Below are positions 1,187 through 14,764 of a stretch of 24,622 nucleotides of DNA, piece after piece. Origin of the DNA: a virus. Under the pieces are notes generated by a model that saw nothing but the letters and a program-made list of their open reading frames with translations, ran no database searches and was not told where the DNA came from. The stretch covers positions 1 through 24,622 of IMG/VR virus record IMGVR_UViG_3300009185_000100; one strand, 5' to 3'. Numbering within the stretch: the stretch's first letter is position 1; each line of letters begins with the position of its first letter. The position numbers and the translations under genes were made by a program.

Positions 1187-1861
1187 ATGGCTAAACTAGG
1201 TTATACATGGTACCCAAAGGATTGGGGCAATTCAGATAGTGTTTTCGAATTATCTTTAAGTGAACGTGGATTATATAGAGAATTTATTGATTTCGCAATG
1301 TTAAATGATAATAAAACTGAGCTAAAAAAAGATGTTTGGGTTCGTAAATTTTCAGTTTCGATGAATGAATTAAATTTGATTTTAGATAAATTATTACAAT
1401 TAAATCTTATTGAAATTAACGAAAATATATTATTTATTCCTAGCTGCGAAAATAGATTGAATTTATCTCGTGGAGGTAAGAAAGGCAAGCCAACCAGGGA
1501 AAGTATTAACAACCTAAATAATCAAAATAAAAAAGGTGCCTCGGAACCTATCTCGGAACCTACCTCGGAACAAAGAGAAAGAGAAAGAGAAAGAGAAAGA
1601 GAAAATGAAAGAGAAAGGCAAAATAATGGAATTATAAATTCAATAGAAAGTTATTATAAAGAATTACCAACATCATCAAATTTTGAATTAATTGCTATTG
1701 CTTTAAATATTCCAAAAGATAAATTAACTTTAAAAATTGCAGACTTTAAAAAAACATCTAAAATTGATTATCTTAACTTTAACGAATTTTGCAACCACTT
1801 TAAGAACTGGGCCAATAAAAATAATTCATCTAACCTAAAACTAAAAACTTCATTTAAATGA
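1187..1861 (+). CDS. Phage replication initiator, winged-helix N-terminal domain
   Basis: 224 residues. Residues about 6-80 (YTWYPKDW, then LSLSERGLYREFIDFAML) resemble the DUF1376/Lin1244-type winged-helix domain of phage replication proteins. The middle (about 105-147) is a low-complexity linker with SEP repeats followed by an alternating Arg-Glu run. Near the C-terminus, NEFCNHFKNW resembles the short conserved helix found at the end of many Bacteroidota phage initiators (DUF7833-like), often linked to helicase contact. The likely role is binding the origin and loading the DnaB helicase encoded next: the two genes overlap as ATGA (1858-1861), implying coupled translation. The linker DNA carries 12-base and 6-base tandem repeats that may be the origin. 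The assignment is by pattern and context; a purely regulatory DNA-binding role is possible. Confidence 0.7.
   Translation: MAKLGYTWYPKDWGNSDSVFELSLSERGLYREFIDFAMLNDNKTELKKDVWVRKFSVSMNELNLILDKLLQLNLIEINENILFIPSCENRLNLSRGGKKGKPTRESINNLNNQNKKGASEPISEPTSEQRERERERERENERERQNNGIINSIESYYKELPTSSNFELIAIALNIPKDKLTLKIADFKKTSKIDYLNFNEFCNHFKNWANKNNSSNLKLKTSFK
1535..1616 (+). repeat. Tandem 12-mer and 6-mer repeats inside the initiator gene, possible origin
   Basis: Three 12-base units (1535-1546, 1547-1558, 1559-1570) share the core CTCGGAA at exact 12-base period. They are followed by five perfect GAGAAA units (1575-1604), one variant ATGAAA and one more GAGAAA (1611-1616), making a nearly pure purine strand. 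An AT-rich stretch with few G or C bases follows (about 1620-1780). Iterons plus a purine tract plus AT-rich DNA inside the initiator gene is the plan of the lambda origin in gene O. Here the repeats also encode a flexible linker, so protein-level low complexity is the competing explanation. Confidence 0.5.
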
Positions 1862-3159
1862 TTCCAGCAAATACAAAATTAGAAGGTCAATTCCTCGGAG
1901 GATTATTAATTAATTCAAGTGAATTTAAATACATTCAAGAACTATTTCACGAAGAACTGTTTTACGATGAAAAGAATCAGTTAATTGCAAAAGCTATTTT
2001 AGGCCTAAATAACGCATCAAAAACTATTGACCTTATAAATGTATCAAACGAGTTAGAAAGTACGCTTAGAATTAACCCTATTAGCTTTTACGACCTATCT
2101 TTGCTTACTAATGATGCTATCCTAAATAGGTTTGATGAGAAAATACTAATTTTAAGCGAGTTTTACATTAAAAGAAAAATGATGTATAAGCTTTCAGAAC
2201 TCCTAGAAAAAACCCAAGAATCAACTAGCGATGTATTTGAACTTTTAGCTGATAACGAAAAAAATACAAACGAGATATTTAACAAAATTTCTATTAGCAA
2301 AACTTTTACAGCTTTAGATTGTGCTATTGAAATGGACCAGCATTTAGATAAAATTGATAAGTTAGTTGATGGAGATTTAATCGGTTGTGATACTGGATTT
2401 AGTGAACTTAATAAACTTACTTCGGGTTGGCAAAATAGCGATTTAATTATATTAGCAGCAAGGCCTGGAATGGGCAAAACATCCTTAATGCTTAAATTTG
2501 TTAATTCGGTTTTAAATCAAAACAAGTCAGTATTAGTGTTTAGCTTGGAAATGTCAAAACTTCAACTATATGCGAGGATGTGTTCACAGATTACCAGCAT
2601 TCCACTTTACAAATTTTTAAAAGAAAAAATGAATCCTTATGAAAAAGAACTTTATAAAAATGAAACTTTTAAGTTATCTAACTCACAATTATTCATCGAA
2701 GATAAAAGCGGAATCAGTATAAATTTTATAAAAGTTAAGGCCCGAAAATTAAAGAGAGATAAAGATATTAGCATGATAGTTATTGACTACATTGGACTTA
2801 TTGACAAAGGTAATAATAACAAAAGCACAAACGATCAAGTTGCTGAAATATCGGGAGCTTTAAAAGGATTGGCAAAAGAACTAAATATACCGATTATATT
2901 ATTAAGTCAGTTAAGTAGGGAGGTTGAGAAGCTAAATGATAAACGACCAATGCTATCACATTTGCGAGATTCGGGAGCTATTGAACAGGATGCGGATATG
3001 GTTATGTTTATTTATCGACCTGAGTATTATGGTATTATGGATGATGGAGCTGGTAATTCAACTATTGGTAAAGCAGAATTAATAGTTGCTAAACATCGGA
3101 ATGGAGCATTAAGCGATATAATTGTTAACTTTAACGGCAACTGTACAAACTTTTATTGA
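1858..3159 (+). CDS. dnaB: Replicative DNA helicase, DnaB family
   Basis: 433 residues, close to the usual 430-470 for DnaB. This ring helicase unwinds the fork 5' to 3' on the lagging strand and contacts primase. Residues about 1-100 form the N-terminal helical domain (TKLEGQFLGGLLIN). The RecA-like C-terminal domain carries Walker A (RPGMGKTS, about 202-209), Walker B (MIVIDY, Asp at about 310), the sensor region LLSQLSREVE, DSGAIEQDADMVMFIYRPEYY, and the KHRNG segment that holds the arginine-finger region. No truncation is seen. It starts within the stop of the initiator gene (ATGA), and the methyltransferase start follows its TGA by one base. No primase gene is seen nearby, so the host primase may be used or primase lies elsewhere. 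Confidence 0.95.
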   Translation: MIPANTKLEGQFLGGLLINSSEFKYIQELFHEELFYDEKNQLIAKAILGLNNASKTIDLINVSNELESTLRINPISFYDLSLLTNDAILNRFDEKILILSEFYIKRKMMYKLSELLEKTQESTSDVFELLADNEKNTNEIFNKISISKTFTALDCAIEMDQHLDKIDKLVDGDLIGCDTGFSELNKLTSGWQNSDLIILAARPGMGKTSLMLKFVNSVLNQNKSVLVFSLEMSKLQLYARMCSQITSIPLYKFLKEKMNPYEKELYKNETFKLSNSQLFIEDKSGISINFIKVKARKLKRDKDISMIVIDYIGLIDKGNNNKSTNDQVAEISGALKGLAKELNIPIILLSQLSREVEKLNDKRPMLSHLRDSGAIEQDADMVMFIYRPEYYGIMDDGAGNSTIGKAELIVAKHRNGALSDIIVNFNGNCTNFY

Positions 3160-3160
3160 T

Positions 3161-4114
3161 ATGAATGTAGTTAGTTTATTTAATGGAATGAATACAGGCC
3201 GACAAGCTTTAGAAAATGTAGGTATTAAAGTTGATAAATATTATTCAAGTGAGATTAAACCTTATGCAATAGAATTAACACAACATCATTTTCCTGATAC
3301 TATACAAGTTGGAGACGTTACAAAGTGGAGAGAATGGGATATTGATTGGCAAAGTATTGATTTAATTTTAAGCGGATCACCTTGTCAAGATTTAAGTGCA
3401 GCTGGTAAACGTGCAGGTATTAATGGAAGTAGAAGTAGTTTGTTTTTTACTTTTGTTGAAATACTTAATCATATTAAATTACTCAATCCTAAAGTTTTAT
3501 TTTTACAAGAAAATGTAGGAAGTGCAAGTAAATTAGATGTAGGAATTATGAGTAGAGCTTTAGGAGTTTACCCTGTAAGAATAAATAGTAGTTTAGTAAC
3601 TGCTCAATTAAGAGATAGATATTACTGGAGTAATATAAGAACTAAAGAAACTATGTTTGATATTGTTACTGATATACCTCAACCAAAAGATTTAGGAATA
3701 ATGTTTAAAGATATTATTACTGATGGTTATGTTGAAAGGGTAAAAGCACTTGCATTATTAGAATCTGAAAGCAGAGCTTGTACAAGTCAAGAAAGTATTA
3801 AAAAACGTGCAGATAGAGAATTTATAAATATGGTTTATGTAGATACTGATAAACATACTTGTTTAAATACAGGTAGTGGTACAATGGAAAAAAGCTCACA
3901 AAGATATTTGCAACATAGAAATGAAACAACTGGAATGATAACACTAATAAAACAAAATGAAATAGTAAGAACAGTAAACAAAATTGAGATGTGCAGACTA
4001 CAAGGATTCCCTGATAATTACTGTGATATACTAACAACAGCTAAAGCAGGTAGTTTACTTGGCGATGGTTGGACTTTACCAATAATAGAACATATCTTTA
4101 AATTTATAATATGA
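3161..4114 (+). CDS. DNA cytosine-5 methyltransferase, DNMT3-like
   Basis: 317 residues. It transfers a methyl group from S-adenosylmethionine to carbon 5 of cytosine. Motifs: I SLFNGMNTG (5-13, SAM binding), SSEI (29-32), GDV (51-53), IV GSPCQDLS (72-79, catalytic Cys75), VI ENV (117-119), VIII QLRDRYYWSNI (149-159), and at the end EMCRLQGFPDNY and LLGDGWTLPIIEHIF (IX/X region). Motif I lacks the usual GG, and the spacing and wording (VVSLFNGxxTG, SRSSLFFTF, LQGFP...LLGxxW) are closer to eukaryotic DNMT3 and related phage enzymes than to typical restriction methyltransferases. I chose ATG 3161, one base after the helicase stop; an upstream TTG at 3122 would lie inside the helicase gene. No restriction enzyme is adjacent, so it is an orphan, possibly protecting phage DNA or altering regulation. 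Target site unknown. Confidence 0.9.
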   Translation: MNVVSLFNGMNTGRQALENVGIKVDKYYSSEIKPYAIELTQHHFPDTIQVGDVTKWREWDIDWQSIDLILSGSPCQDLSAAGKRAGINGSRSSLFFTFVEILNHIKLLNPKVLFLQENVGSASKLDVGIMSRALGVYPVRINSSLVTAQLRDRYYWSNIRTKETMFDIVTDIPQPKDLGIMFKDIITDGYVERVKALALLESESRACTSQESIKKRADREFINMVYVDTDKHTCLNTGSGTMEKSSQRYLQHRNETTGMITLIKQNEIVRTVNKIEMCRLQGFPDNYCDILTTAKAGSLLGDGWTLPIIEHIFKFII

Positions 4115-4440: not shown

Positions 4441-4725
4441 ATGAATTACGAAAAATTTAAACAAATTATTGATTTACAAATCGCTCACAATAAAAGAGTA
4501 GATGAACTTTATGCTTTAAAAATTGATACAATAGAGTTCTTTAATGAACTTGGTCGAGCAAATGAATTGCTTTGGACTGAAGTATTAACCGAAAATGGCG
4601 ATTACCATTTATGTTATTATTTATACGAAATGAATGGTATGTATGGAACACCCGACCTTAACGAAGAATATAAAGACATCAAAGAACTGTATGATTATTT
4701 AATAGAAAACAAAGGATTCAAATGA
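4441..4725 (+). CDS. Conserved-looking small phage protein of unknown function
   Basis: 94 residues, acidic and predicted mostly helical, with an aromatic-rich middle (DYHLCYYLYEMNGMYG) and the end ELYDYLIENKGFK. I recall similar short phage proteins with N-terminal MNYEKF and a C-terminal LYDYL-type helix, but none with a known role. No membrane segment or catalytic motif is seen. Fifty-one non-coding bases precede it; its TGA overlaps the ATG of the next gene (ATGA, 4722-4725), tying it to the ABC-type membrane protein. The function is not assigned. Confidence 0.7.
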   Translation: MNYEKFKQIIDLQIAHNKRVDELYALKIDTIEFFNELGRANELLWTEVLTENGDYHLCYYLYEMNGMYGTPDLNEEYKDIKELYDYLIENKGFK

Positions 4726-5546
4726 ATAAACTAATTCAGATATTTAAAGAATATAAAAAACAATTAACGTTAATATATGTTTTTATGTTACTCACTGAAC
4801 TTTCAATTTTATCAACACCTTTCTTATTAGGTAAAAGCATTGATGGTTTGATTGTTAATGATTGGTTTTGGATATTGCTTTTAGGTGTTTCATATTTTTT
4901 ATCAAACTTTTTTAATTACAAACGAATGGTTTATGATACAAAAGTTTATAACACCATTTATAACAATATTGCATTAAAGTTTCTTAAAAAAGATGATGTT
5001 GATGTTTCAACTAAAATAGCCAGAACAGATATGGCACAACAAATTGTTTTTGTATTAGAAGGTTATGTACATTATTATATCGCAACAATTGTAACCATAA
5101 TCGGTTCGCTTATTTTTATATTTTCAGAGAACTGGCAAGTTGGTATACTCGTTAGTATTTCAATTATCTTTATTGTGAGTTCAGTATTTATACTTTATAA
5201 AAAAATAAAACAAGGGATCATTATAGCAAATAATCATTACGAAACAAAAGCAAAATCAATTGAGTGTGGATATGCAAGTTCTGAATCTTTTTTTAATAGG
5301 AGGGGCAAAATAGAAGTATGTCAATCAACCATACAAGGTAAGAATTGGTTTTTAATTAACAGTATTAAATATATTTTTTTAATTTTATCAATTATATTAT
5401 TAATCAACACATCAAAAAACATTACAATAGGAAGCATTATAACTGTATATTCTTATGTAAATAACTTTTTAATAGCATTACTATCAGCACCAGTTGCAAT
5501 TGAAATGGTTTTAAGAATCAGTGATGTTTTAAAACGCTTAAATTAA
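4722..5546 (+). CDS. Stand-alone six-helix ABC-transporter membrane domain (ABC_membrane_3-like)
   Basis: 274 residues with six predicted transmembrane helices at roughly 15-38, 48-66, 114-133, 139-158, 208-229 and 234-262, the layout of an ABC exporter half. The motif YKRMVYDTKVYNTIY after helix 2 and the segment DVDVSTKIARTDM fit the family annotated as ABC transporter six-transmembrane domain (PF13748). There is no nucleotide-binding domain: no Walker A, signature LSGGQ or Walker B in this protein or in adjacent genes. It would sit in the host inner membrane. Transport would need a host ATPase; otherwise it may modify the envelope or block superinfection. It is translationally coupled to the small gene before it and looks like cargo taken from a bacterial genome. 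Topology and family are fairly sure, function is not. Confidence 0.8.
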   Translation: MNKLIQIFKEYKKQLTLIYVFMLLTELSILSTPFLLGKSIDGLIVNDWFWILLLGVSYFLSNFFNYKRMVYDTKVYNTIYNNIALKFLKKDDVDVSTKIARTDMAQQIVFVLEGYVHYYIATIVTIIGSLIFIFSENWQVGILVSISIIFIVSSVFILYKKIKQGIIIANNHYETKAKSIECGYASSESFFNRRGKIEVCQSTIQGKNWFLINSIKYIFLILSIILLINTSKNITIGSIITVYSYVNNFLIALLSAPVAIEMVLRISDVLKRLN

Positions 5547-5551
5547 AATAA

Positions 5552-5878
5552 ATGAATACAGCAGAATTTAACAAAGTAATTGAAAAAAGAATTGATTTGA
5601 TTAAGTTAATTATGTTATCGAAAGGCAAAGAATATTCAACTGATTCCGATAAGTTCCATAATTTTAAACAGTCAGTAGGTATTAGTTTTCATACATGCCC
5701 CGAAAAAATAGCTTGGGAATTTGCTGTTAAACACTTTCAATCTATTAAAGATACTTTAGATGCTGTTGATAATGGAGCTGTAAATTATACTGATAAATAT
5801 ATTGAAGAGAAAATAGGAGATGCAATTAATTATCTTATTCTTATTGAAGGTATGCTTAAAGAACGTTTACTTGACTAA
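5552..5878 (+). CDS. Nmad1 (DUF1599) nucleotide-modification-associated protein
   Basis: 108 residues. The pattern SKGKEYSTDSDKFHNFKQ, then KHFQSIKDTL and IEEKIGDAINYLILIEGML, fits DUF1599/Nmad1, an all-helical family proposed from comparative genomics to work with enzymes that modify bases in phage DNA. The conserved charged residues (Lys-Glu-Tyr, Asn-Phe, Lys-His, Glu-Lys-Ile-Gly-Asp) are present. It is the last gene of the rightward module, 5 bases after the ABC-type gene, and shares the module with a cytosine-5 methyltransferase. A nucleotide or nucleoside monophosphate substrate is plausible but unproven. Its 3' end overlaps the convergent lysis-cassette gene by 12 bases. Confidence 0.8.
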   Translation: MNTAEFNKVIEKRIDLIKLIMLSKGKEYSTDSDKFHNFKQSVGISFHTCPEKIAWEFAVKHFQSIKDTLDAVDNGAVNYTDKYIEEKIGDAINYLILIEGMLKERLLD

Positions 5879-8814: not shown

Positions 8815-11024
8815 TATGCTTGTGTGTTAATTCCTAAAACATCAAATTTAGTATCCGTGTCATTCCAAACCAAACCAATATAAATAGTTTTACTAATAGT
8901 TGTTGTAGTTGGTAATGTTACTCCGATAGCTCGATAGTTAGTTCCAAAGGCTATTGTTTGTGCTGTGCCATTATCTTTAATTCTTATTATCATTGCTTGT
9001 CCTTCAGACATTGTGCCTGTTGGATTTGCTATTGTTAAGCCTGTAGCTTGAGCTGTTATCTTAACTAAATCATTTGTTGCAGTTGGTGTTACCGTTGCTG
9101 AACTTGCTACACTTTGAACTCTAGGAGCATAATCTGCTTTAGCATTAAATGTAGTCCAATCTGTTGAACTTAAATAACCATTTACTGAAGTTGTTGCTAC
9201 AGGAATTGAAATAGTATTTGTTGCTCTACTTAATGGACTTGAAAATGTTAATGTTGATTCTTTACCATTAAATGTACTCCAATTTGCTGAAGTTAAAGCA
9301 CCCCTATTTGAAGCACTTGCATCTGGTAAATTAAAAGTATGAGTTGCAGTTGCCGAAGATATATTAAAATCAGTTCCTGTAGTACCTGTTGCTAATGATT
9401 GTATTTGTGCGGTTAATCCATTTAAAGCTGTTAAGCCACTTGTAAAAGTTGTTATTACTTGACCTAAATGGCTATTCTCAGTATGTAATGTAATTGTGCG
9501 ACCACTATTATTAACGTAAAATCTAATTGCTAACCTATCAGTTAAAGTTAAAACAGTTTGTGGAACCGCTAAAGCTGTAGTATATAAATCAATAGCTGTA
9601 CCTCCTGTAATGCTTTCAGGTGTTGCTGAATTAGTTGCAATTAAAGTTAAACTAGTCCCATCGTATTTATATAATTCTACATAAAAACTTGGAGTACCTC
9701 CAGCTGAAGATGCACTAAAATATGTTTCAAAATTCCAATTACCGCCAGGTATTAATAATTGATTAGGATCATTTGCATCGGTAATAAAACTTTCAATATA
9801 ACCATTAGATGAAATTGTAAAATCAGTACCAGCTCCGATAATAGGTGTTTTATTTATTTCTTTAAAAGCTACTCCACCTAAAGTTCCTTGAGCTACCGAA
9901 CCATTAAGATAATAAGATATTGAAGAACCGCCACCACTTGATTGTGGAAAGTTAGCAAGTGAACCATCACCTCTAACATATTGAGAAACGACACCAGCTC
10001 CTGTTATTGCTATTGTGCCACTTGTTGTTATCGGACTAGATGCAACACTAAATGCACTCGGCATTGATACGCCTACACTAGTAACTGTACCTGTAGTTAT
10101 GTTTCCACTACCTAATAAAGTTGTTGAATTAATAGTTTTAATATTCGTTCCCGAAACTAAAGTATCTTGTTTTAAATTTAATGCTGTTTGAGTTGCTGTA
10201 GATACGGGTTTGTTTACATCACTTGTATTATCAACATTGTTTAATCCAACCATTGATTTTGTTATTCCCGAAGTCGTTCCTGTAAAAGTTTTATCCCCAG
10301 CAATAGTTTGTGGACTTGTTGAAATCACACCCCTAGCTGTTGCACTTGCATCGGGAACGTTTAAAGTTATTACAGGAGTTGTTGTGCCTGTTGCTACCGA
10401 TGAAGTTAAATCAGTTCCACTAGTTGTTAAAGTTAATGCAGCTACACTTGTAACCGTTCCACCGCCACCCGTTGAAGCAATAGTAATTATTCCATCGGCT
10501 GTAGTTCCTGTAGTTGTTAAAGTTATATTACTTCCCTCAACTAATTTTATACTTCCACCTGTAGCCGATAAAGTTGCTGTATGCGAACTTGAATCTGAAG
10601 TATTTGCTAATGTTTGATTACCTGTATTTGTACCACTTGTATTTGTTATAACTGTTTGTTGAGCATCGGTAACATAATTTTTATTTGTACTTGCTGCTAT
10701 GTCCGCTGTTGTTGCATCTGCTCCAGCAGTTACTAAACCTTTTGAATCGTAAGTGATTTTAGTTTTAGTTGCTCCTGTTATAGCTGTATTGCCAGTTACT
10801 TTAGTTCCTAATGCTGTATTCAAATCGGTTTGACTTGCTAACGTTCCTGTTATAGCACCCCAAGTAACTGCACCCGCTGCACCTGGTCCGATTAAAGTAC
10901 CACCTAAAGTAGTGCCGTCTCCGATATAAAACATTTTAGTATCAGTTGTATAAGCGACCTCGCCACTTTCTAATACAACCGTTATTCTATCGGCATTCGT
11001 GCCACGTCTAATTCTTATTGCCAT
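8814..11024 (-). CDS. Large tail fibre protein, modular
   Basis: 736 residues. Residues 1-50 (IRIRRGTNADRITVVLESGE, TDTKMFYIGDGTTLGG) form the N-terminal attachment-type domain common in Bacteroidota tail fibres, similar in wording to the Mtd N-terminal domain. Long Thr/Ser/Gly-rich beta-repeat shafts follow, with recurring motifs PDASATARGVIS / PDASASNRGALT and ANWSTFNGK / TDWTTFNAK. A separate aromatic-containing domain (about 367-528) may be a jelly-roll carbohydrate-binding unit. The last 100 residues (ASSATVTPTATNDLVKI, NYRAIGVTLP, WNDTDTKFDVLG) are a common C-terminal fibre domain. It probably contributes to host recognition, with the glycine-rich protein encoded directly after it. Its start lies 12 bases after the smaller fibre gene. 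The exact position in the virion is inferred. Confidence 0.8.
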   Translation of the reverse strand: MAIRIRRGTNADRITVVLESGEVAYTTDTKMFYIGDGTTLGGTLIGPGAAGAVTWGAITGTLASQTDLNTALGTKVTGNTAITGATKTKITYDSKGLVTAGADATTADIAASTNKNYVTDAQQTVITNTSGTNTGNQTLANTSDSSSHTATLSATGGSIKLVEGSNITLTTTGTTADGIITIASTGGGGTVTSVAALTLTTSGTDLTSSVATGTTTPVITLNVPDASATARGVISTSPQTIAGDKTFTGTTSGITKSMVGLNNVDNTSDVNKPVSTATQTALNLKQDTLVSGTNIKTINSTTLLGSGNITTGTVTSVGVSMPSAFSVASSPITTSGTIAITGAGVVSQYVRGDGSLANFPQSSGGGSSISYYLNGSVAQGTLGGVAFKEINKTPIIGAGTDFTISSNGYIESFITDANDPNQLLIPGGNWNFETYFSASSAGGTPSFYVELYKYDGTSLTLIATNSATPESITGGTAIDLYTTALAVPQTVLTLTDRLAIRFYVNNSGRTITLHTENSHLGQVITTFTSGLTALNGLTAQIQSLATGTTGTDFNISSATATHTFNLPDASASNRGALTSANWSTFNGKESTLTFSSPLSRATNTISIPVATTSVNGYLSSTDWTTFNAKADYAPRVQSVASSATVTPTATNDLVKITAQATGLTIANPTGTMSEGQAMIIRIKDNGTAQTIAFGTNYRAIGVTLPTTTTISKTIYIGLVWNDTDTKFDVLGINTQA

Positions 11025-12628: not shown

Positions 12629-14764
12629 TTATTTCTTTTTACGTTTTATCCTAGTTTCACCAACCCAAATGTGGCGGCACCAAGGAGTTGTTTCAGTTCC
12701 ATCATTATAAAATCCTCCACGAAAATTCCAAGCATCTTCACCAAATTCATTAGTGTAATCTTCAATTTCATTATATGTTAATCTTTTAGCTTTTATTTTG
12801 CCATCGACTAATTCAGTTCCTGAAGTTAAACCAACCATTTTTCTACAAAAATCTCTTGATGTTGATATTAATTTATTACCACTTACATCGGGTCTTTTAT
12901 CGTATTTGTAAACTGTATAAATTTCAGTCTCATAATCTGCAGTATCTTTATCTAATCCTTTTTCAGTTGGTGTAAATAAACCTCCTAAAGTATCAATTAA
13001 TTTTTTAGCAGCTAACCATTCTAATACAGTTGTAACTTTATCTTTATCGACATTTAACGACTTAGCAAGTTCTTCAGGTTTAGCAAATGGATTACCTTTT
13101 AATTGATTTAATATTCCATTTCTTAAATCGGTTTCCGATAACTGAAATCTATTAGCTGTGTATAATTTTTGTTTAGACAACTCGAATTTTAAAACTTGTT
13201 TTGAATCCTTAAAGTTTACATATTCAATATCTATAATTTCATCTTCATCATCTATTTGTATTGCTCGAGCAGTTGCCCATTCAATAAATCTTTTTTCTTT
13301 GTCAGCAGATTGTTGAACTTTTACAACCTCGTTATTCATTTCATCCTGTGCTATTCCTAAAAACGTTAAAGCATCCGCATCACTTAATCCAAATCCTGTC
13401 TTAATCATTATTAATGCCTGGTCCGCTGTATAATCACCCTTCTTTAACTTGTTGGCTATATTAAAAAGATTTTGTCTTTGTCTTCCTGTTAAGTTTTTAA
13501 GATGTTCGTTTACTTGTATTTCTTCTTGAATTACAGTTGCAGTTGGTAAACCAATTTCTGCAGCTTCAATCTTTAACCCGTATTTTTCAATAATATAATT
13601 AGTAACGATATTAGGATCTCTAGCATTTAAAGCATTGATAACATTTTGATTTTCTAATGGCAGTTCTTTGCCTATTGGCTGAACTTGTTCTACTTCAAAT
13701 GTAATATCTAAACCAGTCTTTAGCTTAAACATTTTATCAATAAACTTATTAAAAGCTACTTGTTCAATCTTAGCATATTCGTTAATAAATAATTCATGTG
13801 CTAAATCTAATTCGTTACGATCTCCTAAAGTACCCTCAGTTTTGATTTTAAACAACACTCCCGGCACGTTATGTCCTGTTATTATCTTTTGTTGGTTACG
13901 TTTATTTAACGCTTCGTATTGGTCCGCTAAACCTGTTGGAGTTACATTTACAACTTCTGCTCCTTTACCATCGGGATTAGTAAATGATAAAACTACTTTA
14001 CCAGCATTTTGTGTACCTTGATGTTTCTCTTGAAAACGTTCTTTGATATCCTCCTTAACTTCAGGTGTTAATTTACCACTAAAAAAAGTTATAATATGAC
14101 CAGCACTAAATCCATTCTTTACTAAAGAGTGAAAAAAGTTGCTAATCTCAATATCGGTATTAATGTCTAATAGAACGCTTGAATAATCGGGTGAAGGGTA
14201 TAAGCCATCTAATTCATTTAAAGACGGTGTAAAGTCCTTAGAATAGTAAATTGAGGCACCTATAAACCCTTCCTTATAAAATGGAAAGTAAGTTTTCTTT
14301 AAATGGTAACTTTTAGCAGTCCAGTCTTCACTATACCAAACTCCGCAATTATCAGCACTTAGTCTTATTTTGCCCATATCTAAATGGTAAAACTCAATCG
14401 GTTGCCCTATTAAATTTGTAGTTACTTGACATGCGAAACCTCCGTATATAGCCTTATCGGAATCACATTTTTTTCTTAATTCATACCATGAATCAAATCT
14501 ATTTGCCTTGGCTAAAAATTGTTGAACTTGTGGTAAATCTTGACTAGGTACTATTTTAAGTCCGCTAAGATAACGTGCTTTACCTTTTACAATAGCAGCA
14601 TGCTCAGGATGATTGTTGTAAGAATTTAATAATTCTTTTGGGAAGTTATTGTCCTTACCCCACTTAACAAACTCACCAGCAGTATCAATTTTATAAGTAG
14701 GAAGTTGATTAACATCCATCTTAATAGTAATTATGTCATTATATACTTCTAATTTTTTAGCCAT
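12629..14764 (-). CDS. Portal protein with long C-terminal extension
   Basis: 711 residues. Residues about 1-400 are an HK97-like portal: FVKWGKDNNFPKELL, HAAIVKGKARYLSG, YGGFACQV, then KVVLSF, ITGHNVPGVLF and TEGTLGDRNEL in the crown/stem region. The portal ring forms the DNA entry and exit channel at one capsid vertex. Typical portals have 400-550 residues, so about 200 are extra. Around 555-605 a winged-helix-like segment appears (KPEELAKSLNVDKDKVTTVL, then KKLIDTLGGLFTPTEKG). The end (SRDFCRKMVG, EFGEDAWNFRGGF, PWCRHIW) resembles the Cys/His-bearing C-terminal part of MuF-type minor head proteins, so this may be a portal-MuF-like fusion. It overlaps the preceding gene by 8 bases. The core assignment is secure, the extension's role open. 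Confidence 0.85.
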   Translation of the reverse strand: MAKKLEVYNDIITIKMDVNQLPTYKIDTAGEFVKWGKDNNFPKELLNSYNNHPEHAAIVKGKARYLSGLKIVPSQDLPQVQQFLAKANRFDSWYELRKKCDSDKAIYGGFACQVTTNLIGQPIEFYHLDMGKIRLSADNCGVWYSEDWTAKSYHLKKTYFPFYKEGFIGASIYYSKDFTPSLNELDGLYPSPDYSSVLLDINTDIEISNFFHSLVKNGFSAGHIITFFSGKLTPEVKEDIKERFQEKHQGTQNAGKVVLSFTNPDGKGAEVVNVTPTGLADQYEALNKRNQQKIITGHNVPGVLFKIKTEGTLGDRNELDLAHELFINEYAKIEQVAFNKFIDKMFKLKTGLDITFEVEQVQPIGKELPLENQNVINALNARDPNIVTNYIIEKYGLKIEAAEIGLPTATVIQEEIQVNEHLKNLTGRQRQNLFNIANKLKKGDYTADQALIMIKTGFGLSDADALTFLGIAQDEMNNEVVKVQQSADKEKRFIEWATARAIQIDDEDEIIDIEYVNFKDSKQVLKFELSKQKLYTANRFQLSETDLRNGILNQLKGNPFAKPEELAKSLNVDKDKVTTVLEWLAAKKLIDTLGGLFTPTEKGLDKDTADYETEIYTVYKYDKRPDVSGNKLISTSRDFCRKMVGLTSGTELVDGKIKAKRLTYNEIEDYTNEFGEDAWNFRGGFYNDGTETTPWCRHIWVGETRIKRKKK

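Follow-up and report, generated by a model that had tools for sequence, protein, structure and literature searches.

A putatively mobile phage gene encoding a predicted ABC-exporter fold with shortened docking hairpins and without a nucleotide-binding domain

The ATPases of ABC transporters dock onto two coupling helices, each located at the end of a long cytoplasmic hairpin, and in type IV exporters the ATPase is normally part of the same chain, free-standing partner ATPases of this type not being usual. A clear precedent for a transporter with the ABC fold and without an ATPase is the SbmA family; SbmA has the fold of an ABC exporter, lacks both a nucleotide-binding domain (NBD) and standard coupling helices, and is driven by protons (PMC13316013). 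PF13748 and its bacterial orphan members are already known by name, and a 2022 survey reports no solved structure for the family (PMC9408558). The open-access literature searched mentions the predicted fold only in passing and yielded no function of PF13748; a bacterial gene of PF13748-type name is listed, without a test, as mutated in a paper on resistance evolution. Among phage proteins, SieA of P22 is a small polytopic exclusion protein of the inner membrane (PMC10883804).

We have analyzed a PF13748 gene in a stretch of viral DNA of 24,622 nucleotides (IMG/VR record IMGVR_UViG_3300009185_000100, positions 1 to 24,622), the whole of which is referred to as the window. The features of the locus are as follows.

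1858..3159, + strand: DnaB-like replicative helicase of the replication module, in the same operon as the transporter gene (profile matches)
3122..4114, + strand: C5-cytosine DNA methyltransferase, the second variable cargo gene of the operon, whose true start is possibly later (profile, contigs)
4441..4725, + strand: 94-aa protein of unknown function, a core gene of the lineage, at the left edge of the insertion (contig comparison)
4722..5546, + strand: orphan transmembrane protein with predicted ABC-exporter fold, PF13748, 274 aa, no NBD (profile, model, relatives)
4722..5551, + strand: segment inserted relative to the empty site, consisting of the gene and a 5-nt spacer, with ATGAAT at both edges (contig comparison)
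4986..5006, + strand: turn of the first cytoplasmic hairpin, residues 89-95, the expected site of coupling helix 1 (model, alignments, conservation)
5552..5878, + strand: 108-aa protein of unknown function, phrog_6802, at the right edge of the insertion (contig comparison)

The open reading frame at 4722-5546 (+) extends from an ATG to a TAA codon. An earlier reading of the locus, made without database searches and referred to as the sequence-only reading, had placed it in the replication module, as borne out by the operon shared with the helicase, and had described its product as a complete six-helix protein of the ABC_membrane_3 type. In line with this, the protein of 274 residues scored 59 bits (E 6.3e-16) with PF13748 (ABC_membrane_3) in the Pfam search, where membership is taken as a profile score above the curated cut-off, here 27 bits; the distant L122 protein and proteins of five other phage records also exceeded it. 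PF00664, the second profile considered in that reading, was not matched in the Pfam search, nor was PF05992 (SbmA-like). Relatives of nearly fixed length occur on about 80 IMG/VR contigs and show a dN/dS of about 0.08-0.27, which together argue that the reading frame is not a chance occurrence, and the substitution ratios indicate strong purifying selection. Four charged residues in or beside helices are almost invariant (E113, H117, K216 and E261), and E113, E174 and E261 are conserved glutamates. Only a few acidic residues are conserved close to the membrane.

The AlphaFold2 model of the protein alone, calculated from 25 sequences, is all helical with a pLDDT of 88.1 and a pTM of 0.80. As evidenced by a Foldseek comparison with the PDB, its best matches are the transmembrane domains of ABC exporters, with TM-scores to the query of up to 0.82 (6rai_B, TmrAB), and TM287/288, PCAT1 and ComA are also found among them. 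The protein is thus predicted to adopt the complete six-helix transmembrane domain fold of a type IV ABC exporter, and in an alignment to MsbA its C-terminus coincides with the expected beginning of the ATPase linker.

The claim that the window encodes no NBD likewise held, as PF00005 was not matched above its cut-off either here or in 34 other transporter-bearing phage records, which reach 299 kb in length and may be incomplete. Weak P-loop fragments below this cut-off are present in some of the 35 records, and the fused or nearby NBD of a complete ABC exporter was found in none of these possibly incomplete sequences. ABC exporters are further characterized by coupling helices on a pair of intracellular loops of standard length. 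The phage protein lacks these, as each of its cytoplasmic hairpins falls short of those of canonical exporters by about 13-20 residues. Counted from anchor to anchor, the first hairpin spans 97-98 residues in the phage family and 100 in the distant L122 clade, compared to 100 in the bacterial orphans and 111-114 in MdlA/MdlB; for MsbA a span of 104 was tabulated from a misplaced anchor, and counting from D53 to W165 yields 112. The second hairpin spans 96-100 residues in the phage family and 99 in the bacterial orphans, versus 117-120 in MsbA, MdlA and MdlB. In the HMMER alignment of the family to TM288, two symmetric gaps of seven residues flank hairpin 1, and in a MAFFT alignment the MPVSFFDKQ stretch of MsbA, its coupling helix 1, has no counterpart in the family; note that at 15-20% identity the gaps are placed only approximately, an uncertainty that does not extend to the overall shortening. 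The lowest conservation in the protein is found in the turn that is left, at residues 90-95 (majority fraction 0.50, entropy 2.1), and the arms that flank it are among the best conserved parts of the protein. This pattern argues against a docking surface, for which the reverse should be observed.

The transporter gene is not a constant element of its lineage. A search with the 94-aa gene at 4441-4725 returned 48 contigs, and 35 contigs of the window lineage, nearly all of which carry DnaB or the gene at 4111 at 97-100% identity, could be scored. In 28 of these the 94-aa gene directly overlaps the start of the gene at 5552 (...ggattcaaATGAATGTAACC...), and in the other seven, the window included, the transporter sits exactly between the two (...ggattcaaATGAATAAACTAATT...TTAAATTAAaataaATGAATACAGCAG...); one of the seven, L034, ends inside its transporter gene. 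As empty and filled sites lie between the same two genes, the comparison of lineage contigs identifies the transporter as a single cargo gene that was inserted precisely, each edge of the insertion showing the short repeat ATGAAT. No promoter or terminator was recognizable within the inserted segment. The sequence-only reading had coupled the transporter to the 94-aa gene, and the stop codon of the latter does overlap the transporter ATG by 4 nt (ATGA); a functional pair, however, is contradicted by the 28 contigs in which this lineage core gene occurs without the transporter, and 4441-4725 was rejected as a partner, the overlap being positional only. The C5-cytosine methyltransferase at 3122-4114 is variable as well, being absent between DnaB and the gene at 4111 in L050, L008, L014 and L133 and diverged in others.

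Beyond this lineage the family occurs in other environmental phages. The sequence-only reading had called phage genes of this type unusual, and among cultured phages they are indeed rare, as no match was detected in 50,697 cultured phage records. The main clade shows 61-100% identity and is almost always exactly 274 aa long, and further clades are found at 51%, 40-48% and 26% identity; the last is a separate phage clade that also has a stand-alone PF13748 gene (L122:6251-7084, L178-L181). In L113 (near 10001-10822, of the 44% clade) two reading frames, with 215 and 65 codons, take the place of the intact transporter gene, which is either broken in this contig or was misassembled. The carriers are unrelated phages, comprising the small genome of the window and T4-type genomes of up to about 300 kb. 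Out of 30 records with the transporter gene, the window portal protein recurs in a single one, a sister contig, and a T4-type portal is present in 13; one of these 13 is a phage of 161 kb, and its transporter shares 88% identity with that of the window. In the tree, the window protein is nested in a clade whose members mostly adjoin thymidylate synthase. This gene (PF00303) is directly adjacent in 12 of 41 loci, usually 1-3 nt upstream, and is no more than three genes away in 17; among the large phages it ends 1-3 nt before the transporter near 10001 in L051, L052, L054, L062, L064, L065, L068, L069, L071 and L072. From these relationships the transporter appears to be mobile cargo of freshwater phages, and the small phage most likely acquired it from large ones.

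The hosts of these freshwater phages are probably Bacteroidota, since the window portal at 12629-14764 (-) has its only cultured relatives in Nonlabens phage P12024 (about 31% identity across 37% of the portal) and no Shine-Dalgarno signal stands out above shuffled sequences, the count of 66 versus 65 being consistent with, not proof of, such hosts. Bacteroidetes are known from a published study to be infected by freshwater phages that reach 331 kb (PMC9723584).

Outside viruses, the nearest matches that we found are orphan proteins of bacteria, with about 23-26% identity. These distant relatives were obtained from plasmid records, and two scans of GTDB genome contigs for relatives with the family motifs yielded none. 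Those bacterial members that we read are stand-alone and NBD-less with short intracellular hairpins, as are the phage proteins. A divergent TetR/AcrR regulator was found in five of the eight annotated loci read, and RND efflux genes adjoin the orphan in some; this arrangement points to the usual layout of a self-sufficient transport gene. Plasmid-borne orphans divergent from a TetR/AcrR regulator are L183 and L185-L188, and a Klebsiella copy (L184) is located near crrB.

The layout of the bacterial genes and the precedent of SbmA favor a reading in which the phage protein is an ion-driven or otherwise ATPase-independent, self-sufficient membrane carrier, to which we assign a probability of roughly 45%. 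Early in infection the protein would form a homodimer in the host inner membrane and alternate between inward-open and outward-open states, powered by an ion gradient as in SbmA, and it might thereby export a small substrate from the infected cell or import one, be it a peptide, a nutrient or something toxic. Against this stand the fact that SbmA is not detectably related in sequence and has an extra helix, the small number of conserved acidic residues near the membrane, and the best conservation in the cytoplasmic arms, which could equally reflect the binding of a cytoplasmic partner; the comparison with the bacterial orphans, moreover, rests on about 23-26% identity. The chief rival is superinfection exclusion, as single membrane genes that are optional and exchanged between phages typically serve in their competition. 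The sequence-only reading had likewise suggested the exclusion of competing phages or a change of envelope properties, and both are still conceivable. The inner-membrane protein would block DNA entry or an envelope component that competitors need, with the ABC fold as a mere scaffold, and an optional, precisely inserted and horizontally moved gene in unrelated phages is what one would expect of an inter-phage weapon. Small polytopic exclusion proteins of the inner membrane are known (P22 SieA, PMC10883804), and in L057 (1900-3268) and L108 the transporter is followed by a calcineurin-like metallophosphoesterase and a family 2 glycosyltransferase, possibly an envelope-modification module. The periplasmic loops, however, are minimal with poor conservation of ECL2 and ECL3, the non-phage relatives carry a regulator typical of transport genes, and no PADLOC defence model matched the protein. 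Known exclusion genes are, furthermore, mostly expressed from prophages, whereas the present one belongs to a replication operon, in a window where no integrase was recognized, so that we consider exclusion rather unlikely, if the most serious competitor.

Three other explanations are far less probable. The sequence-only reading had offered a host ATPase as a possible partner, by which the phage protein would be an ordinary ABC exporter or importer, and the ABC fold, the lack of an ATPase in the phage and the conserved cytoplasmic arms are compatible with such borrowing. Since each hairpin is 13-20 residues too short, the stretch of coupling helix 1 is missing and the tip that is left varies more than any other part, it nevertheless appears unlikely, all the more as type IV exporters normally have their ATPase in the same chain, and we give it little credence. 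Mixed dimerization with MsbA or another half-exporter of the host, which would poison that exporter or alter its specificity, is scarcely more plausible: transmembrane domains of exporters do dimerize and the phage protein stops exactly where the ATPase linker would start, but its profile similarity to MsbA and the E. coli relatives of MsbA is weak, the bacterial orphans occur as stand-alone genes, and the shortened hairpins would mismatch the domain-swapped arms of a partner. Finally, the thymidylate synthase neighbors (12 of 41 loci adjacent, 17 of 41 within three genes) are what a carrier for nucleosides, folate or related compounds in nucleotide supply would predict. As this neighbor is mostly missing from both the lineage of the window and the 42-44% clade, and the link may derive from one ancestor or from both genes being co-located cargo, this too is improbable.

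Beyond the single protein, we tentatively propose, at lower confidence than the carrier function itself, that PF13748 is a second, independent family of ABC-exporter fold that became a secondary carrier after losing its ATPase and docking helices, and that its phage branch is a mobile gene altering membrane transport of the infected cell. No description of the phage branch, the insertion polymorphism or the shortened docking hairpins was found in the open-access literature searched. If true, a second such family, with a phage branch that is under strong selection and exchanged between unrelated phages, would provide an independent test of how ABC machinery turns into a carrier driven by a gradient. 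It would also suggest that infection by many freshwater phages depends on some function in the membrane. Near-identical phage pairs with and without the gene exist in nature, making a direct comparison possible.

With respect to known systems, the phage protein shares the transmembrane fold of the type IV exporters MsbA, TmrAB, TM287/288 and BmrA (TM-scores to 0.82) but differs in being NBD-less and in the shortening of both intracellular hairpins; membership in the MsbA family was rejected, the MsbA group being only weakly similar by profile comparison (17.7%). Like SieA of P22 it is a small polytopic membrane protein encoded by a phage, although SieA belongs to another family and is smaller, with three helices in about 160 aa. 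To SbmA/BacA-like (SLiPT) proteins it is akin in its predicted ABC-exporter fold, the absence of an NBD and the missing coupling helix 1 stretch. SbmA, however, has 406 aa versus 274 aa, an extra helix and a glutamate ladder, where the phage protein has few conserved acidic residues near the membrane, and membership in the SbmA family was rejected on an hhalign probability of 0.1% and the lack of a PF05992 match. The closest likeness is to the bacterial PF13748 proteins of Serratia, Pantoea, Cronobacter, Bosea and Priestia, annotated as 'ABC transporter six-transmembrane domain-containing protein', which are likewise stand-alone, about 280 aa long, six-helical and NBD-less and have the motifs R..DT...IY and AR and the same shortened hairpins in common with the phage proteins. 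From these the phage clade is set apart by the absence of a TetR regulator and by its own invariant motifs, YKRMVYDTKVY and STxQGKNW.
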